NCBI RefSeq assembly: GCF_001870675.1
Contig: NZ_MEHT01000001.1
Span: 186,001-250,000, forward strand
Direction of reading: 5' to 3'
Origin: Roseinatronobacter thiooxidans
GTDB lineage: Bacteria > Pseudomonadota > Alphaproteobacteria > Rhodobacterales > Rhodobacteraceae
Length of the DNA stretch: 64,000 nt
The notes beneath the pieces are model-generated. The model searched no databases and was not told the origin of the DNA. It saw only the letters and a program-made list of their open reading frames with translations. Made by a program: the position numbers and the translations under genes. How positions within the stretch are numbered: position 1 is the stretch's first letter; every line of letters starts with the position of its first letter. Below, piece by piece: positions 44,051 through 54,475 of this stretch.

Positions 44051-44655
44051 GGCGCTTTGACGGCAAGACCCTGCTGGTTGCCACGCATAACGCGGGCAAG
44101 CTGGAAGAATTCCAGCAGATCATGACCCCCAAGGGGATCACGGTCACCTCTGCCGCCGAACATGGGCTGCCAGAACCTGCCGAGACGGAAACCACCTTTA
44201 TCGGCAATGCGCGCATCAAGGCACATGCGGCGGCCAAGGCGACCGGCTTGCCTGCACTGGCCGATGATTCCGGGCTGGAGGTTGCAGCCCTTGGCGGCGC
44301 GCCCGGTGTCTATACCGCCGACTGGGCGGAAACCCCGCAAGGGCGCGATTTCAAAATGGCGATGGAGAAAACCCACGCCAAACTGATTGCGGCTCAAGCC
44401 CCCCAACCGTGGCACGCGCGGTTTTGCTGCACGCTGGTTCTGGCTTGGCCAGACGGGCATGACGAGGTGTTTGAAGGCCATGCCAACGGGCAGCTTGTCT
44501 GGCCCTTGCGCGGGCTGGACGGGCATGGCTATGACCCTATGTTCCAACCCGCCACCAAGACCCGCACCTTTGCGGAAATGACGACTGACGAAAAAAACGC
44601 CCTCTCCCACCGTGGCGCCGCGATCAAGGCGCTTTTGCAAGGATGTTTCACATGA
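44047..44655 (+). CDS. rdgB: RdgB/HAM1 XTP/dITP pyrophosphatase
   Basis: Removes non-canonical purine nucleotides (dITP, XTP) from the pool. 202 residues. [15 protein letters not shown] at the N-terminus, [20 protein letters not shown] and the terminal [10 protein letters not shown] are signatures. It is coupled to rph by ATGA and its last bases overlap the ridA start the same way. Confidence 0.94.
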
Positions 44656-44659
44656 AACG
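44644..44659. other. parS-like palindrome at the ridA start (2 mismatches)
   Basis: TGTTTCACATGAAACG differs from the canonical 16-bp parS at two positions; the inner GTTTCAC-x-TGAAAC frame is kept. It spans the rdgB stop and ridA start, about 3.8 kb from the nearest perfect site and about 1.5 kb from the 3' end of parB. ParB binding is uncertain. Confidence 0.4.
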
Positions 44660-45028: not shown

Positions 45029-46183
45029 ATGGACGACTGGCAGAATGGCGGCTTTGGCCTGTATCTTCATTGGCCGTTTTGCCAGTCGAAATGCCCCTAT
45101 TGCGATTTCAACAGCCATGTCAGCGCGCAGATCGACCAGCAGGCATGGGCGCGCGCCTATCTGGCCGAGATTGACCGCGTGGCCGAAGAAACCAAGGGGC
45201 GGCTGCTGAACACGGTGTTTTTCGGCGGCGGCACACCATCACTGATGGAGCCAGACCTTGTCGCCGCCCTGCTGGAACGGATCAAGTCCCGCTGGACCTG
45301 CGCCAATGATTTTGAAGTCACGCTGGAAGCAAACCCCGGATCGGTGGAGGCCGCCCGCTTTCGCGGCTTTGCCGATGCGGGGGTGAACCGCATCTCGATG
45401 GGGATTCAGGCGCTGAATGACGAGGATCTGCGCCGCCTGGGGCGGTTGCACAGCGTGTCAGAGGCAAGAGCGGCGTTTGACATCGCGCGCGCACAGTTCG
45501 ACCGCGTCAGCTTCGATCTGATCTATGCGCGCCAGTTCCAAAGCTTGCAGGCATGGGAGGCAGAGTTGCAAGCCGCCCTTGCACTGGCGGTTGACCACCT
45601 GTCACTCTATCAACTGACGGTCGAGCCGGGCACGGCTTTCGGGGCGCGCCATGCGAAAGGCGGGCTGAAAGGGCTGCCAGATGACGATGTTTCGGCAGAT
45701 ATGTACCTGTTAACACAAGATATTTGCGCCGCACACGGAATGCCCGCCTATGAGGTGTCCAACCACGCCCGCCCTGACGCACAATCGCGCCATAACCTGA
45801 TTTACTGGCGCTATGGCGATTATGCGGGCATCGGGCCAGGGGCGCATGGGCGGCTGACGCAAAACGGCAACAGGGTCGCCACCCACACCCCCCTGACCCC
45901 GCAAACATGGCTGGAGCAGGTCGCACAGGCAGGCCATGGCGAGCACCCGCGCGAGGGGATCCCCGCGCAGGAACAAGCCATGGAATACCTGATGATGAGC
46001 TTGCGTTTGTCCGAAGGCACCGATTTGGCGCGCTACAACACCATGGCGGGCGCGGCATTGCCCCAAGCCCAAATTGAAGATTTGGTTGACCAAGGCTTAC
46101 TGGCCCGACACGGCACCCGCATCATGGCCACGCAAACAGGCAGGCCCGTTCTGAACGGCCTGCTGCGTGCGCTTATGTCCTGA
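45029..46183 (+). CDS. hemW: HemW, radical-SAM heme chaperone
   Basis: Related to oxygen-independent coproporphyrinogen oxidase but thought to insert heme into target proteins. 384 residues. The radical-SAM cluster motif CQSKCPYC lies near residue 18, with LYLHWPFC before it, FFGGGTPSLM and GVNRISMGIQALNDEDLRRL after. It lacks the N-terminal extension of true HemN. Its last 11 bases overlap the convergent parB. Confidence 0.92.
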   Translation: MDDWQNGGFGLYLHWPFCQSKCPYCDFNSHVSAQIDQQAWARAYLAEIDRVAEETKGRLLNTVFFGGGTPSLMEPDLVAALLERIKSRWTCANDFEVTLEANPGSVEAARFRGFADAGVNRISMGIQALNDEDLRRLGRLHSVSEARAAFDIARAQFDRVSFDLIYARQFQSLQAWEAELQAALALAVDHLSLYQLTVEPGTAFGARHAKGGLKGLPDDDVSADMYLLTQDICAAHGMPAYEVSNHARPDAQSRHNLIYWRYGDYAGIGPGAHGRLTQNGNRVATHTPLTPQTWLEQVAQAGHGEHPREGIPAQEQAMEYLMMSLRLSEGTDLARYNTMAGAALPQAQIEDLVDQGLLARHGTRIMATQTGRPVLNGLLRALMS

Positions 46184-47057
46184 CGGGGGTTCCCAGAATA
46201 CCGCACAGGCGGTCAAGCTGTTCCATTGTCTTGAAACTGATGGTCAGGGTGCCTTTGCCCCCGCCCGCATAATCCAGATCAATCGCCATGCCCAAGGTTG
46301 CGGACAGGTCAGCTTCCAACGCGCGGGTATCGGCATCTTTGCCATAAGATTTTGATTTGGCTTTCTTATTCGGCGCAGGTGCGGTTTTCAGCAGGCTTTC
46401 TGTCTGGCGCACAGACAGCCCTTCCAACACCACTTTGCGCGCCAGCATGGCGGGGTCTTCTGCGGTGATCAGCGCGCGGGCATGGCCCGCTGTCAGCTTG
46501 CCTTCGCGCAGCATGGTCTGCACCTCGGCGGGCAGTGTCAGCAGACGCATGAGATTGGCAATGTGAGAGCGGCTTTTGCCCATCGCTTGCGACAGATGTT
46601 CTTGCGTATGGCCAAAGCGGTCGATCAGGGCGCGGTAGCCCATCGCCTCTTCCACCGGGTTCAGGTCGGCGCGCTGGATATTCTCGATTATACCGACTTC
46701 CAACACCTCGGTATCGGTGAAATCCCGAATGATAACAGGCACTTCATGCACCTGCGCCCGCTGCGCGGCGCGCCAGCGGCGCTCGCCCGCAACAATTTCG
46801 AACATATCGCCCTTGGGGCGCACGATCAGCGGCTGAATAACACCCTTTTCGCGGATCGACATGGACAATTCGGCAAGGGCCGTGTCATCGAAATGGCGGC
46901 GCGGCTGGTCCGGATTGGCGACCAGCTTTTCCACGGGCAGGCTTTGTTCGCGCGGGCGGTCTGCGCCAGATGCTTCGGGCGATGCGACAGAGACTTCGGC
47001 CATCAGCGCAGACAAGCCCCGCCCCAGCCCGCGACGTTCGTTTTTACGGTCTGTCAT
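46173..47057 (-). CDS. parB: Chromosome partitioning protein ParB
   Basis: CTP-dependent clamp that loads at parS and spreads, linking the origin to the segregation machinery. 294 residues. N-terminal RRGLGRGLSALMAE, CTP-binding box GERRWRAAQRA near residue 92, ENIQRADLNPVEEAMGY, helix-turn-helix SQAMGKSRSHIANLMRLL, and a C-terminal dimer domain. Its start overlaps the parA stop (ATGA). Two perfect parS sites lie 1.4 and 3.3 kb upstream. Confidence 0.97.
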   Translation of the reverse strand: MTDRKNERRGLGRGLSALMAEVSVASPEASGADRPREQSLPVEKLVANPDQPRRHFDDTALAELSMSIREKGVIQPLIVRPKGDMFEIVAGERRWRAAQRAQVHEVPVIIRDFTDTEVLEVGIIENIQRADLNPVEEAMGYRALIDRFGHTQEHLSQAMGKSRSHIANLMRLLTLPAEVQTMLREGKLTAGHARALITAEDPAMLARKVVLEGLSVRQTESLLKTAPAPNKKAKSKSYGKDADTRALEADLSATLGMAIDLDYAGGGKGTLTISFKTMEQLDRLCGILGTPVRT

Positions 47058-47869
47058 TGTGCTGCCCCCTCGGGAAGTCGTTTATTGTGCTTTTGCAGCA
47101 GTTCGACTGCAAGCTCTCGATAGGCCACGGCCCCTTTTGACGAGGGGTCGAAATTCAGCACCGGCAAGGCGAAAGACGGCGCTTCACTCAGGCGGACATT
47201 GCGCGGAATCATGGTTTTCAGAACCAACTCGCCCAGATTTCCGCGTGCATCTGCTTCGACCTGCTGCGCAAGGTTGTTGCGGCGGTCGAACATTGTCAGC
47301 AAAATCCCCTCAATCCGCAGGGCGGTATTTGCCGTTTCGCGCAATTCCCGCACTGTCAGCATCAGTTGCGACAGCCCTTCAAGGGCAAAAAACTCTGCCT
47401 GCAAGGGCACCAACACCGATTGCGCCGCAACCATCGCATTGATCGTCAACAGGTTCAGCGAGGGCGGACAATCGACAAGGACATAATCGAAGTGGGATTC
47501 CTTGATCTCGGGGTGGCGCAAGGCGTCGTGCAACAGGTAGCTGCGCCGCGCGCGCGACATCAACTCAATATCGGCGGATGACAGATCGGTGGTTGCGGGA
47601 ATGACGGACAAATTAGGGTGCTGTGTTTCAATGACAATTTCGGACGGGCTGACATCGGAAAACAGAAAATCATAAGTGGTATACTTCCGGGCCGACACTT
47701 CCAGCCCAAGCCCTGTAGAGGCATTTCCCTGTGGGTCCAGATCGACCAGCAGGGTTTTTTGGCCCCGCTCTGCCAAGGCGGCAGCAAGGTTGATGGCTGT
47801 CGTGGTTTTACCAACCCCGCCCTTCTGGTTCGCAATCGCGATTGTACGGGTAGAGGCCAGATCAGACAC
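47054..47869 (-). CDS. parA: Chromosome partitioning ATPase ParA (Soj)
   Basis: DNA-binding ATPase that moves ParB-parS complexes. 271 residues. Deviant Walker A motif NQKGGVGKTTTAINLA near residue 14, DLDPQGNASTGLG, and Walker B VLVDCPPSLNLLT. It starts with GTG at 47869, eight bases inside the rsmG end; AAGGA lies upstream. Middle gene of rsmG-parA-parB. Confidence 0.97.
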   Translation of the reverse strand: MSDLASTRTIAIANQKGGVGKTTTAINLAAALAERGQKTLLVDLDPQGNASTGLGLEVSARKYTTYDFLFSDVSPSEIVIETQHPNLSVIPATTDLSSADIELMSRARRSYLLHDALRHPEIKESHFDYVLVDCPPSLNLLTINAMVAAQSVLVPLQAEFFALEGLSQLMLTVRELRETANTALRIEGILLTMFDRRNNLAQQVEADARGNLGELVLKTMIPRNVRLSEAPSFALPVLNFDPSSKGAVAYRELAVELLQKHNKRLPEGAAQ

Positions 47870-48479
47870 GGGTTATATCCTTCAAGATGAGCAGTTTCGC
47901 CAGCGGGTCGGTCTGACTGTCAAACAGGGCCAGATCAAAGTGCCACTCTCTCTGCGCCGCTGCAAGCTCTTCAGTGTAGTTTTTTCCCTTTGGCAGCAGG
48001 GCAACACCATCTTTAGCAAGATGCCGCCCAACCCATTCCAGCAACTGCGGCAAAGGGGCCAATGCGCGGGCCGAGACGACATCTGCGGATTGCGGCGGTG
48101 TTGTTTCGGCGCGGGTGGTCAGAACCTTTGCATTCAGGCCAAATTCACGCACTGCGGTGACCAAAAACGCGGCCTTGCGCGCGTCGCTTTCCACCAGTGT
48201 GAACTGGCACTCTGGCAAGTGCTCTTTGGCCAGAATTGCGCAGACCAGCGCAGGCAAACCACCGCCAGACCCGAGATCCACCCAATGGCGGGCATTGGCG
48301 GGGGCGTGGGTGAATAATTGCGCCGAATCGATGATGTGGCGATCCCAGAAATCTGGCAGAGTCGATGCTGCAACAAGGTTTATATGCGCGTTCCATTTCT
48401 GAAGCAGGGCCGCATAAGCATGCAGCCTGTCCAGTGTTTCACGTGAAACATTCACACCACAAATCGGCTGTATCGTCAT
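47862..48479 (-). CDS. rsmG: 16S rRNA (guanine527-N7)-methyltransferase RsmG (GidB)
   Basis: SAM-dependent methylase of 16S rRNA, 205 residues. [19 protein letters not shown], the SAM site [17 protein letters not shown], and [10 protein letters not shown] are visible. A perfect parS palindrome is written into codons 10-15 (residues NVSRET), so this stretch serves both protein and ParB binding. The start overlaps the mnmG stop. Confidence 0.95.
48435..48450. other. parS site 1, perfect 16-bp palindrome
   Basis: TGTTTCACGTGAAACA, identical to the canonical parS and fully palindromic. It lies within the 5' coding part of rsmG, 5.2 kb left of the predicted origin. Confidence 0.93.
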
Positions 48480-50338
48480 GCCGAGGCGCGATCTTTGCGG
48501 CTTTGCAGGCGTGACAGCAGCAGAACCAGGGCCGCCGGCGTCATCCCATCAATCCGCGCGGCCTGCGACAGGCTTTCGGGCCGTACGCGCGACAATTTAC
48601 CCGCCAACTCATTAGAAAGCCCGCTTATTCCTGTAAAATCAAACCCTTCGGGAAAACGCCTGTCTTCATCTGCCTGTAGCGCCGCGATCTGCGATTGCTG
48701 GCGTTCCAGATAGGAGTCATACACCATTTCTTTCTCGATCTGGCACTTGCTGGCGGCATCGATCCCTTCCAGCGCGGGCGCAAGCGCTTCCAACACAGTG
48801 AAGTCAAACCCCGGCAGCCCCAGCAATGTCAGCGCATTGCGGCGCGTGCCATCTTCAGACACTTTATACCCCGCCTTGTTCAACTGCCCCGGTGTAAAAG
48901 TGAAACTGCGCAGCTGGTCTTTCGCGCGTTCCAACCGGCCGATCTTGTCTTCAAACATCGCGCGGCGCGTGTCGGAAACAAGGCCCAGCGAAATGCCCAA
49001 AGGTGTTAACCTTTGGTCAGCATTATCGGCGCGCAATGACAGGCGATATTCAGCGCGCGAGGTGAACATGCGGTACGGCTCTGACACGCCGCGCAGGGTC
49101 AGGTCGTCGATCATCACCCCGATATAGGACGACGCACGGCTAAGCGTGACCTGCTCTAACCCCAAGGCAAAGCGCGCGGCGTTTATACCGGCGACCAAAC
49201 CTTGCGCTGCGGCTTCTTCATATCCGGTGGTGCCATTGATCTGCCCTGCCAGATAGAACCCCTGCACATCTTTCAGGCGCAGCGACAATGTCAGCGCGCG
49301 GGGGTCCAGATAGTCATATTCGATCGCGTAACCGGGCTGCAAAATGCGCACAGATTCCAGCCCACGAATGCTGCGGACATAGGCGTCTTGCACTTCGGCA
49401 GGCAGCGATGTTGAAATGCCGTTGGGATAGACAGTGTCATCGTCCAGTCCTTCGGGTTCCAGAAACACCTGATGAGAAGTTTTCTCGGCAAAGCGCGTCA
49501 CCTTATCTTCAATCGAGGGGCAATACCGTGGCCCGACCCCTTCGATCTGCCCGCCATACATGGCAGAACGTGACAGGTTTTCGCGCACAATATCATGCGT
49601 TTGTTCGTTCGTGTGGGTTATGGCGCAGGCGACTTGCCGCGCTGTGAGCTGATTCGTGCTGAATGACAGGAATTCGGGGGTCTCATCGCCCTGCTGCTGT
49701 TCCAGCGCCGCCCAGTCGATGGTTTTTCCATCCAGCCGCGGGGGTGTGCCGGTTTTCAGCCGCCCCATGGGCAAGCCCAGACCGCGCAACTGGTCTGCCA
49801 GAATATTCGATGCGGCATTGCCCATGCGGCCTGCGGGAAAGCTTTTGTCGCCGATAAACACCCGCCCGCCCAGGAATGTGCCGGTTGTCAGCACAACTGC
49901 GCGCGCAAGGATTTCTGTGTCGCCATTGACTTGCAGGCCGGTGACTGTGCCGCCTTGCTGCAAAAGAGCTGTCACTTCAGCCTCGATCACATCCAGATTG
50001 GGCGCGGCAAGCACCACGCGCGCGGCGATTTCACGGTAGCGCTTGCGGTCGGCCTGCACACGCGGGCCTTGCACCGCTGGCCCTTTGGAGCGGTTCAGCA
50101 ACCGATACTGAATCGCAGCATAATCGCCCGCGCGGCCTATTAACCCGTCGAGCGCATCAATCTCGCGGACAAGATGGCCCTTGCCCAAGCCACCAATCGC
50201 CGGATTGCAGGACATGACACCCAGATCGGCTGTCTTGAAAGTGACCAAGGCTGTGGTTGCACCCATGCGCGATGCAGCCAAGGCCGCTTCGACCCCTGCA
50301 TGCCCGCCGCCAACAATGATCACATCATAATGTTTCAC
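48476..50338 (-). CDS. mnmG: tRNA uridine-5-carboxymethylaminomethyl modification enzyme MnmG (GidA)
   Basis: FAD enzyme that, with MnmE, modifies the wobble uridine of several tRNAs. About 620 residues. FAD site [20 protein letters not shown], signature [20 protein letters not shown], and [14 protein letters not shown] are clear. Start: GTG at 50338 has AGGAG eight bases upstream, ideal spacing, with parS site 2 in between. The GTG at 50347 (adding Phe-His-Val) abuts the AGGAG and is less likely. It follows mnmE by 11 bases. Confidence 0.95.
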
Positions 50339-50346
50339 GTGAAACA
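50331..50346. other. parS site 2, perfect 16-bp palindrome over the mnmG start
   Basis: TGTTTCACGTGAAACA, identical to site 1. It contains the GTG start of mnmG and lies between that codon and its ribosome-binding site, so ParB spreading or clamping here could affect mnmG expression. It lies 3.3 kb left of the predicted origin. Confidence 0.93.
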
Positions 50347-52984: not shown

Positions 52985-53000
52985 AGTTTCATGTGGAACA
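52985..53000. other. Degenerate parS-like palindrome upstream of rho (3 mismatches)
   Basis: AGTTTCATGTGGAACA matches 13 of 16 parS positions. It lies in the rho leader, about 0.6 kb from the predicted origin. It may be a decayed or weak site. Confidence 0.3.
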
Positions 53001-53064: not shown

Positions 53065-53502
53065 TCAGAATTTCACCACAACCGACAAAACGATCAGCAC
53101 CATCATCACTGTGGGGACTTCGTTCATCATCCGGTAATTGCGCCCTGTCAGGGTATTGCCACCCTCTGTGAAAATACGGCGGCGGCGGGCGCACCACATG
53201 TGAAACCATGTCATGCCGATCAGCCCGATGAACTTGCTCCATGGCCAGATGGAGGACCAAGTGATCAGCCCCGGAATAGACACCATCATCAGCCCTGTGA
53301 CCCATGCCACGATCATGGCGGGATTCATGATCACGCGCAGCAGCTTTTCTTCCATCGTCTGGAACACAGCGCCCATCGCTGCCCCGTCAGAGCGTTCGAC
53401 ATGGTACACAAACAGCCGTGGCAGATAAAACAACCCCGCCATCCAGCTGATGACAGCCATAATGTGCACCGCTTTGATCCAGAGATACAAGTCACTCAGC
53501 AT
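53065..53502 (-). CDS. hemJ: HemJ-type protoporphyrinogen oxidase
   Basis: Membrane enzyme oxidising protoporphyrinogen IX in heme synthesis. 145 residues with about four membrane helices. LWIKAVHIMAVISWMAGLFYLPRLFVYH holds the conserved His residues, and WSKFIGLIGMTWFHMWCARRRR follows, as in HemJ/UPF0093. The ATG at 53502 is chosen because AGAGG lies five to six bases upstream; the open frame to 53688 runs into the AT-rich origin and codes an implausible tail. It borders the predicted oriC. Confidence 0.88.
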   Translation of the reverse strand: MLSDLYLWIKAVHIMAVISWMAGLFYLPRLFVYHVERSDGAAMGAVFQTMEEKLLRVIMNPAMIVAWVTGLMMVSIPGLITWSSIWPWSKFIGLIGMTWFHMWCARRRRIFTEGGNTLTGRNYRMMNEVPTVMMVLIVLSVVVKF

Positions 53503-53522
53503 TTTTGCCTCTTTTGGTTCCC

Positions 53523-53882
53523 GCATCTTCTTAATTAAAAAATAGAGATAAGGGAATGATGTAGTAGTAAGGGCTGTGGATATGGGGATAAGTTTTTGAT
53601 GCACAGAGTTATCCACAGTTTGGGAAAATCTATTCCGGTTTTTTCTTTGGATAAAACATAATAAAAACAACAAGATAAAACAGAACAAACCAAGAATAAC
53701 GGGTTCGTGATGTTTTAGGATTCAGGTTTTGCACAGCGTGGGGGGGTCGGGTTATCCCGTGTGGATAGACGCCCGTGTGGACTTGCAGAGGCAGGCACAA
53801 CATGCCAGCACTTGCTTTGGCGGGGGATATCCTGCCGAATTGCCTTCACTTATTGGCACGCTTGAACACAAGGTTATCCACA
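53523..53882. other. Predicted chromosomal replication origin (oriC)
   Basis: A 379-base gap between divergent hemJ and maf. Perfect DnaA boxes TTATCCACA lie at 53609-53617 and 53874-53882. One-mismatch boxes lie at 53575-53583, 53583-53591, 53646-53654 and 53760-53768. AT-rich stretches: 53531-53560 has 6 G/C in 30, and 53641-53700 has 14 G/C in 60, against a GC-rich chromosome. The last box touches the maf ATG. Genes on both sides point away, and parAB-parS lies within 8 kb. The dnaA gene is not in the window. Confidence 0.87.
53562..53591 (-). other. Basal origin-unwinding element: tandem DnaA boxes plus DnaA-trio
   Basis: On the minus strand, box TTATCCCCA is followed directly by ATATCCACA (sharing one base), then GCCC, then TTA-CTA-CTA, whose complement on the plus strand is TAG-TAG-TAA. 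An AT-rich stretch with TTAATTAA follows toward hemJ. This order (tandem boxes, short GC spacer, trio repeats, AT-rich DNA) is that of the DnaA-trio unwinding system known from Bacillus subtilis. Confidence 0.7.
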
Positions 53883-54475
53883 TGGTGCTTGTCTTGGCCT
53901 CTGGTTCCGAAATCCGGCGGCAAATGTTGGAACAGGCGGGTGTGCAGCCCGAGATTTGCGTGGCGCGGGTTGATGAAACGGCGATCATTGCATCCTTGCT
54001 GGCAGAAGAGGCAAGCCCGCGCGACATTGCCGACACCCTTGCCGAGGCCAAGGCGCGCAAAGTGTCTGGCCGCATGGCGGGCTGTCTGGTTTTGGGCTGT
54101 GATCAGGTTTTGGCGCATAAAGGCGCAATCTTGGAAAAGCCGCCCAGTATAGATGCCGCGCGTGACCAGTTGCGCCTGTTGCGGGGCGGGACGCATCAGC
54201 TTTTGTCGGCGGCGGTGCTGTATGAGGATGGCAAGCCTGTCTGGCGGCATGTGGGTGTGGCGCGGTTGGTGATGCGCAATTTCTCGGACAGGTATATGGA
54301 AGCCTATCTGGCCCGCAACTGGCCCGCGATCGGTACTTCGGTTGGGGGCTATAAGCTGGAGGAAGAGGGCGTGCGGCTGTTTGCGCAGATACAGGGAGAT
54401 TATTTCACCATTCTGGGCCTGCCCTTGTTGGAATTGCTGAATTATCTGGCGCTGCGAGGAGAGATTGAGGGATGA
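53882..54475 (+). CDS. maf: Maf-family nucleotide pyrophosphatase
   Basis: House-cleaning pyrophosphatase hydrolysing modified or canonical nucleoside triphosphates. 197 residues. LASGSEIRRQMLEQAGV, the acidic site VLGCDQVLAHKG and the late WPAIGTSVGGYKLEEEG are family marks. The ATG at 53882 directly follows a perfect DnaA box and gives the normal N-terminus; no strong ribosome site is seen. First gene right of the origin, coupled to aroE by a four-base overlap. Confidence 0.92.
   Translation: MVLVLASGSEIRRQMLEQAGVQPEICVARVDETAIIASLLAEEASPRDIADTLAEAKARKVSGRMAGCLVLGCDQVLAHKGAILEKPPSIDAARDQLRLLRGGTHQLLSAAVLYEDGKPVWRHVGVARLVMRNFSDRYMEAYLARNWPAIGTSVGGYKLEEEGVRLFAQIQGDYFTILGLPLLELLNYLALRGEIEG

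Follow-up and report, generated by a model that had tools for sequence, protein, structure and literature searches.

Where the chromosome of Roseinatronobacter thiooxidans starts to replicate, and which DNA element is opened there, are the questions raised by a short gap between the divergent genes hemJ and maf. This gap is part of a 64-kb stretch of contig C1 (hereafter the window, i.e., the whole stretch of DNA that was analysed), for which a first-pass annotation had proposed an alphaproteobacterial chromosome origin. Origins have been predicted with Ori-Finder for 101 Rhodobacteraceae strains, using DnaA boxes, the minimum of GC disparity and the proximity of parAB as criteria (PMC6699656); so the origin proposed here is of a known kind. 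The triplet array and the position of the IHF-like site described below go beyond that study, the accessible part of which contains no gap anatomy. While the origin itself is of an ordinary kind, and its position is useful for orienting the chromosomes of the family, the array and a possible change in its DnaA partner are the part worth following.

Anatomy of the hemJ-maf gap

The intergenic gap comprises 379 bp (53503-53881) and is flanked on the left by hemJ (53065..53502, minus strand, start at 53502; TIGR00701, above the cut-off) and on the right by maf (53882..54475, plus strand, with its ATG at 53882; a Maf-family protein scoring just below the TIGR00172 cut-off). The identities of these two genes as well as those of rho, parB, parA, rsmG, mnmG, mnmE, aroE and dnaA were verified. 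The first-pass annotation had described a span without genes (53523..53882) containing two perfect and four one-mismatch DnaA boxes and two very AT-rich stretches, with the genes on both sides pointing away from it. The six boxes were located, both AT-rich stretches were recovered (53523-53572 and 53617-53701) and the gene orientations agree; the gap itself also stands, its limits being corrected to those given above, since the earlier right end falls one base into maf.

The six DnaA boxes with at most one mismatch lie within 308 bp, out of 15 such boxes found across the whole window. They include a tandem pair on the minus strand (ATATCCACA, 53575..53583, and TTATCCCCA, 53583..53591, one mismatch each), a perfect box on the plus strand (TTATCCACA, 53609..53617), two more one-mismatch boxes on the minus strand (TTATCCAAA, 53646..53654, and CTATCCACA, 53760..53768) and a second perfect TTATCCACA on the plus strand (53874..53882), the last base of which is the A of the maf ATG. 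In 1000 dinucleotide shuffles of the gap, extended by 12 bases of maf, such boxes averaged 0.13 and never exceeded 2. A forward box with no more than one mismatch occurs around the maf start in 40 of the 51 gaps of the family set defined below, compared with 0.4% of control 50-mers from the window, and given that it overlaps or abuts the start codon, DnaA bound to the origin could also influence maf expression. By a simple pattern, the box overlaps the maf ATG in 27 of the 51 gaps.

The AT-rich stretch adjoining hemJ (53529..53555, plus strand) is rich in purines, the segment 53523-53572 being 70% AT, and an A/G-rich tract occupies the same position in relatives; this stretch is likely the first segment to unwind (DUE). 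The second AT-rich stretch (53617..53701) is the low point of GC content in the window: the 26 stretches of 50 bp with 24% GC or less all start between 53624 and 53652. Neither a CtrA site (TTAA-N7-TTAA) nor a GATC sequence occurs in the hemJ-maf gap.

An IHF-like site (AAACAACAAGATA, 53665..53677, plus strand) with one mismatch to WATCAN5WTR is located in this second stretch. Within the aligned central AT-rich block, sites with at most one mismatch are present in 35 of the 51 gaps (mononucleotide shuffles: mean 10.7, maximum 19; reverse strand 15) and perfect sites in 11 (mean 0.7, maximum 6; reverse strand 1). Scanning whole gaps for the IHF consensus WATCARNNNNTTR was unconvincing (7 of 29, shuffle mean 1.2, maximum 6; 2 of 21, mean 0.8, maximum 4), the count restricted to the aligned block giving the clearer signal. 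In many relatives the IHF-like site thus keeps its position in the central AT-rich part of the origin.

Next to the hemJ-side AT-rich stretch lies an array of triplets resembling DnaA-trios, ATG ATG TAG TAG TAA (53556..53570, plus strand), which aligns with a conserved element of the family and contains the only TA[GA]x3 run of the window on either strand. It is followed by a GC-rich spacer, GGGC (53571..53574, plus strand), analogous to that of the basal unwinding system (BUS; PMC8287927), and then by the tandem boxes in reverse orientation.

Conservation of the gap within the family and the class

The family set consists of 51 genomes including the own one, 30 of them with hemJ at the gap and 21 without. 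The former come from a HemJ search in which 108 of 120 family genomes matched; the 30 loci among the matches listed correspond to 29 relatives plus the own genome, and all 30 carry maf across the gap from hemJ, with gaps of 362-495 bp. The latter come from a maf search in 28 genomes with no or a weak HemJ match, 26 of which matched; 21 of the 30 loci among the matches listed (L044-L064) contain a maf orthologue and the other nine a distant homologue (28-34% identity). In these 21 genomes hemJ is not beside the origin, while maf and the origin are retained. The upstream frame displayed is Rho in 18 of the 21 loci lacking hemJ and an antisense frame in the remaining three.

DnaA boxes with at most one mismatch abound in both groups. 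The gaps of the 29 relatives contain 93 of them, from 1 to 6 per gap (100 shuffles: mean 3.2, maximum 10), and the 480 bp upstream of the 21 maf orthologues contain 54 (shuffles: mean 2.2, maximum 6), with none upstream of the nine distant maf homologues (one of which has only 395 bp of upstream sequence). Some of the 51 gaps are poor in boxes, having a single one (such as L015 and L024) or none (L049). A profile built from the gaps of the 50 relatives, own sequence excluded, yielded 53492-53885 as its sole significant match in the window (E 5.5e-22).

The conserved triplet element is situated about 50 nt from the hemJ start and might for this reason be a regulatory site of hemJ instead of a part of an origin. 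This is improbable, as the element is kept in genomes without hemJ at the gap, where a strict pattern recovers it in 9 of 21 (shuffles: mean 2.0, maximum 7) and the alignment shows it too, and other families have a related array next to hemE. A second alternative is that the boxes serve DnaA titration or promoter control of hemJ and maf, which share the gap as divergent genes and one of which bears a perfect box on its start codon. Such a function is very hard to reconcile with the 21 genomes where hemJ is elsewhere or absent, boxes being kept in 20 of them, and promoter control leaves unexplained the skew switch, the parS cluster and the matches beside hemE described below; a simple scan for the sigma-70 consensus found no promoter in 53400-54000, which is weak evidence. 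We therefore regard it as extremely unlikely that titration or promoter control is what the boxes are for.

Evidence for a chromosome origin extends to other families of the class. Model R1 comprises 89 positions equivalent to 53535-53622 of the window (the left half of the gap) and was derived from the 50 relatives, the own sequence being excluded. In the own genome it has one strong match (C1:239537-239618, E 2.2e-6; next E 0.08). Across 115 genomes of the class, 25 match at E <=0.01; besides the own genome and another member of its family, these are 23 genomes of other families. Among the best matches of these 23, 13 adjoin hemE, one abuts the 3' end of a maf and nine are beside neither gene. 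In Caulobacter, hemE is likewise a neighbour of the origin identified by experiment, Cori (PMC1914354).

A hemE search directed outside the family matched 84 of 111 genomes (including the own one and one of the same family); 30 loci were among the matches listed, and 28 were left after these two were dropped. In a sample of 20 of the 28, the 9-20 kb extending from hemE towards the origin contained maf in all 20 genomes. The 9-20 kb covered past the origin, towards maf, contained no dnaA in any of 20 genomes of other families.

Several features of the gap are shared with Cori of Caulobacter crescentus, located in the hemE-COG1806 gap: several DnaA boxes, an AT-rich stretch, a candidate IHF site (one mismatch in the window) and a nearby parS. 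R1 recognises hemE-side gaps of other alphaproteobacterial families. The gap differs from Cori in that the left flank is here hemJ (rho in others) and hemE is elsewhere, and in the absence of CtrA sites from the gap, compared with five in Cori (PMC1914354). As stated there, Caulobacter's was the only origin experimentally mapped in the class as of 2007 (PMC1914354).

GC skew, likely terminus and partition sites

The genome is a draft of 50 contigs, and skew was sampled over about 1.06 of its 3.5 Mb. The cumulative GC-skew minimum of the window is at 53530, inside the gap, where an origin had been expected to place it; in these sampled stretches of the draft, the largest negative-to-positive step is the one at the gap, with -0.031 for the part of the window to its left and +0.093 for the part to its right. 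Lesser steps of this kind occur in C46, at the far end of C43 and at the 10-kb bin of C43 starting at 190001. Elsewhere on contig C1 (358 kb), four of five sampled stretches left of the window are negative (the exception being C1:1-20000, +0.022), and those beyond the window to the right are +0.076, +0.003 (C1:290001-310000) and +0.080.

Of 11 other contigs sampled, C43 passes from plus to minus in a terminus-like manner, C34 also passes from plus to minus, and C46 shows the succession minus, plus, minus. The skew of C43 is irregular, with +0.035 in the bin at 190001 and +0.006 at the far end. A search with a dif-like core sequence located a site with one mismatch at C43:119901, the best of 22 matches with at most three mismatches (reversed control: 3). 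Over the surrounding 140 kb the cumulative skew peaks at C43:137403, 17 kb away, and together the two likely mark the terminus.

The parABS genes and sites, claimed by the first-pass annotation to be close by, are indeed so. parB (46173..47057, minus strand; TIGR00180) and parA (47054..47869, minus strand; a ParA-like ATPase below equivalog cut-offs) are 5.6-7.3 kb from the gap. Across the 3.5 Mb of the genome, the parS pattern GTTNCACNTGNAAC has four matches, which all fall in the segment 44645-52999 of the window and 0.5-9 kb from the gap (reversed control: 0). According to the palindrome search, two of them are perfect palindromes, one within rsmG (48435..48450) and one in the first codons of mnmG (50331..50346), and two are parS-like sites with two mismatches, at 44644..44659 (plus strand) and near the rho start (52985..53000, plus strand). 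The peptide motifs NVSRET and MFHVKH accompany the sites in rsmG and mnmG.

That replication starts elsewhere, for instance at dnaA (C1:32367, 207 kb from the gap), and the hemJ-maf gap is a relic, is suggested by the draft state of the genome and the weaker sign changes of skew on other contigs, and is nevertheless a very remote prospect, as the 4.3 kb surrounding dnaA contain no box with at most one mismatch, and there is no cluster of three boxes per 400 bp in the other 0.9 Mb sampled and no pair of perfect boxes less than 300 bp apart, among 16 perfect boxes in the genome, other than the one in the gap.

Taken together, the boxes, the AT-rich stretches, the skew minimum, the proximity of parAB and parS, the conservation in the family and the R1 matches beside hemE indicate that the entire hemJ-maf gap (53503..53881) is the chromosomal replication origin, oriC (probability about 0.96). 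The original reading as an alphaproteobacterial chromosome origin is thus upheld by the skew, the conservation in 51 genomes, the sole parS cluster and the hemE-side matches. Against it count the draft state of the genome, the unclean skew, the lack of a CtrA site in the gap, the location of hemE on another contig (C11) and not beside the gap, the distance to dnaA, the mismatch in the own IHF-like site, the 9 of 23 R1 matches that are beside neither hemE nor maf together with the one at the 3' end of a maf, and the family gaps with a single box or none.

The protein-DNA contacts and the direction of opening that we infer for this origin are as follows. DnaA would bind the six boxes and, starting from the tandem minus-strand boxes (53575/53583), would form a filament across GGGC and onto one strand of the array (53556-53570), opening the purine-rich AT stretch in the direction of hemJ. 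Bending of the central AT-rich stretch by IHF would probably bring the maf-side boxes into the complex. The forks would depart bidirectionally, which would account for the divergent genes and the skew switch, and the new origins would be segregated by ParB bound to the nearby parS cluster.

The triplet array and the DnaA that would read it

In the BUS rule, at least three NAN triplets are found no more than 16 bp from a DnaA box, the GC-rich region averaging 4 bp, and candidate BUS sequences were reported in 85% of 2070 origins (PMC8287927). The hemJ-maf origin resembles the BUS and DnaA-trios of B. subtilis in its triplets, GC-rich spacer and tandem boxes, and in the 3'-GAT-5' triplets adjoining the box (PMC8287927). 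It departs from them in that two of the five triplets in the window are ATG, the middle bases of relatives are mostly not A, and Tyr takes the place of Asn187 in the own DnaA. The orientation of boxes relative to the array is the same as in B. subtilis. The window contains a sequence conforming to the NAN rule (TAGTAGTAA, with spacers of 4 and 12). The rule was discarded as a discriminator: 30 of the 51 gaps including the window pass it somewhere on this strand (box with up to two mismatches), mostly at other positions, this being a raw, uncontrolled count.

On the presumed unwinding side, comparison of relatives brings out an element conserved between alphaproteobacterial families. Alignment of the 50 relatives shows it as roughly four triplets of the form A/T-T-G with TAG after them. 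Over the 12 nt before TAG, G occupies the third position of 130 among 200 triplets (2000 shuffles: mean 60, maximum 80); at the middle position the counts are 147 for T, 34 for G, 15 for A and 4 for C. A search of whole genomes for GATGATG-N5-GTAGG, which matches 77 of 121 genomes, was dropped as too loose because its reversed control matches 25.

Other families were examined with a run test, which demands at least five triplets with a fixed third base adjoining a reverse DnaA box (at most two mismatches, spacer of 20 or less). Runs phased by G occur on the expected strand in 14 of the 28 hemE loci and on the opposite strand in one (40 shuffles: mean 0.4, maximum 2), and the corresponding numbers for A, T and C are 1, 4 and 1. 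The middle base of the 84 triplets in the 14 guanine arrays, one of which (L180) is GC-rich and doubtful, is G in 37, T in 23, A in 21 and C in 3. Inside the family, the same test on 50 gaps was positive in 13 for A, 10 for G, 9 for T and 2 for C (shuffle means 0.4-0.8); as it does not single out guanine there, the guanine phase within the family rests on the aligned columns. In the window's own array no base reaches a run of five.

The own DnaA was aligned to chain 8btg_A, which we take to be the DnaA of B. subtilis. The residues of this chain at 187, 190, 193, 202 and 228 agree with those of PMC10721633, and the own protein has Tyr, Val, Leu, Lys and Glu at these positions. In B. subtilis Asn187 contacts the central adenine, while Arg202 and Glu228 contact guanine; a central thymine or guanine slows opening and cytosine does not (PMC10721633). 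Among the own DnaA and the best 80 of 346 relatives, the adenine-reading Asn187 is absent and Tyr is there instead, Tyr187, Lys202 and Glu228 each being present in 81 of 81. Within the family, Tyr187 together with Lys202 and Glu228 may fit a reading of guanine rather than adenine.

On these grounds we tentatively propose, giving it somewhat less than an even chance, that Alphaproteobacteria open their origin by a divergent DnaA-trio in which guanine is read (3'-GNT-5' versus 3'-GAT-5') and that DnaA has changed along with it, Asn187 being replaced by Tyr and Arg202/Glu228 kept as Lys/Glu. The window's array would then be an intermediate, combining ATG ATG with the canonical TAG TAG TAA in one phase. 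If the proposal is true, the rule of a middle A overlooks the actual site of unwinding in a large part of the class, and the DNA element and the DnaA residue co-vary, which makes the code of origin opening testable from either side. The literature covered, with most subscription papers and supplements outside its scope, contained neither a guanine-phased DnaA-trio in Alphaproteobacteria nor a gap anatomy for Rhodobacteraceae. In further alignments, position 187 is Asn in chain 2z4r and Gln in chain 1l8q, presumably the proteins of T. maritima and A. aeolicus, respectively. The closest relatives of the own DnaA belong to Roseinatronobacter and Natronohydrobacter, the best with 93% identity.
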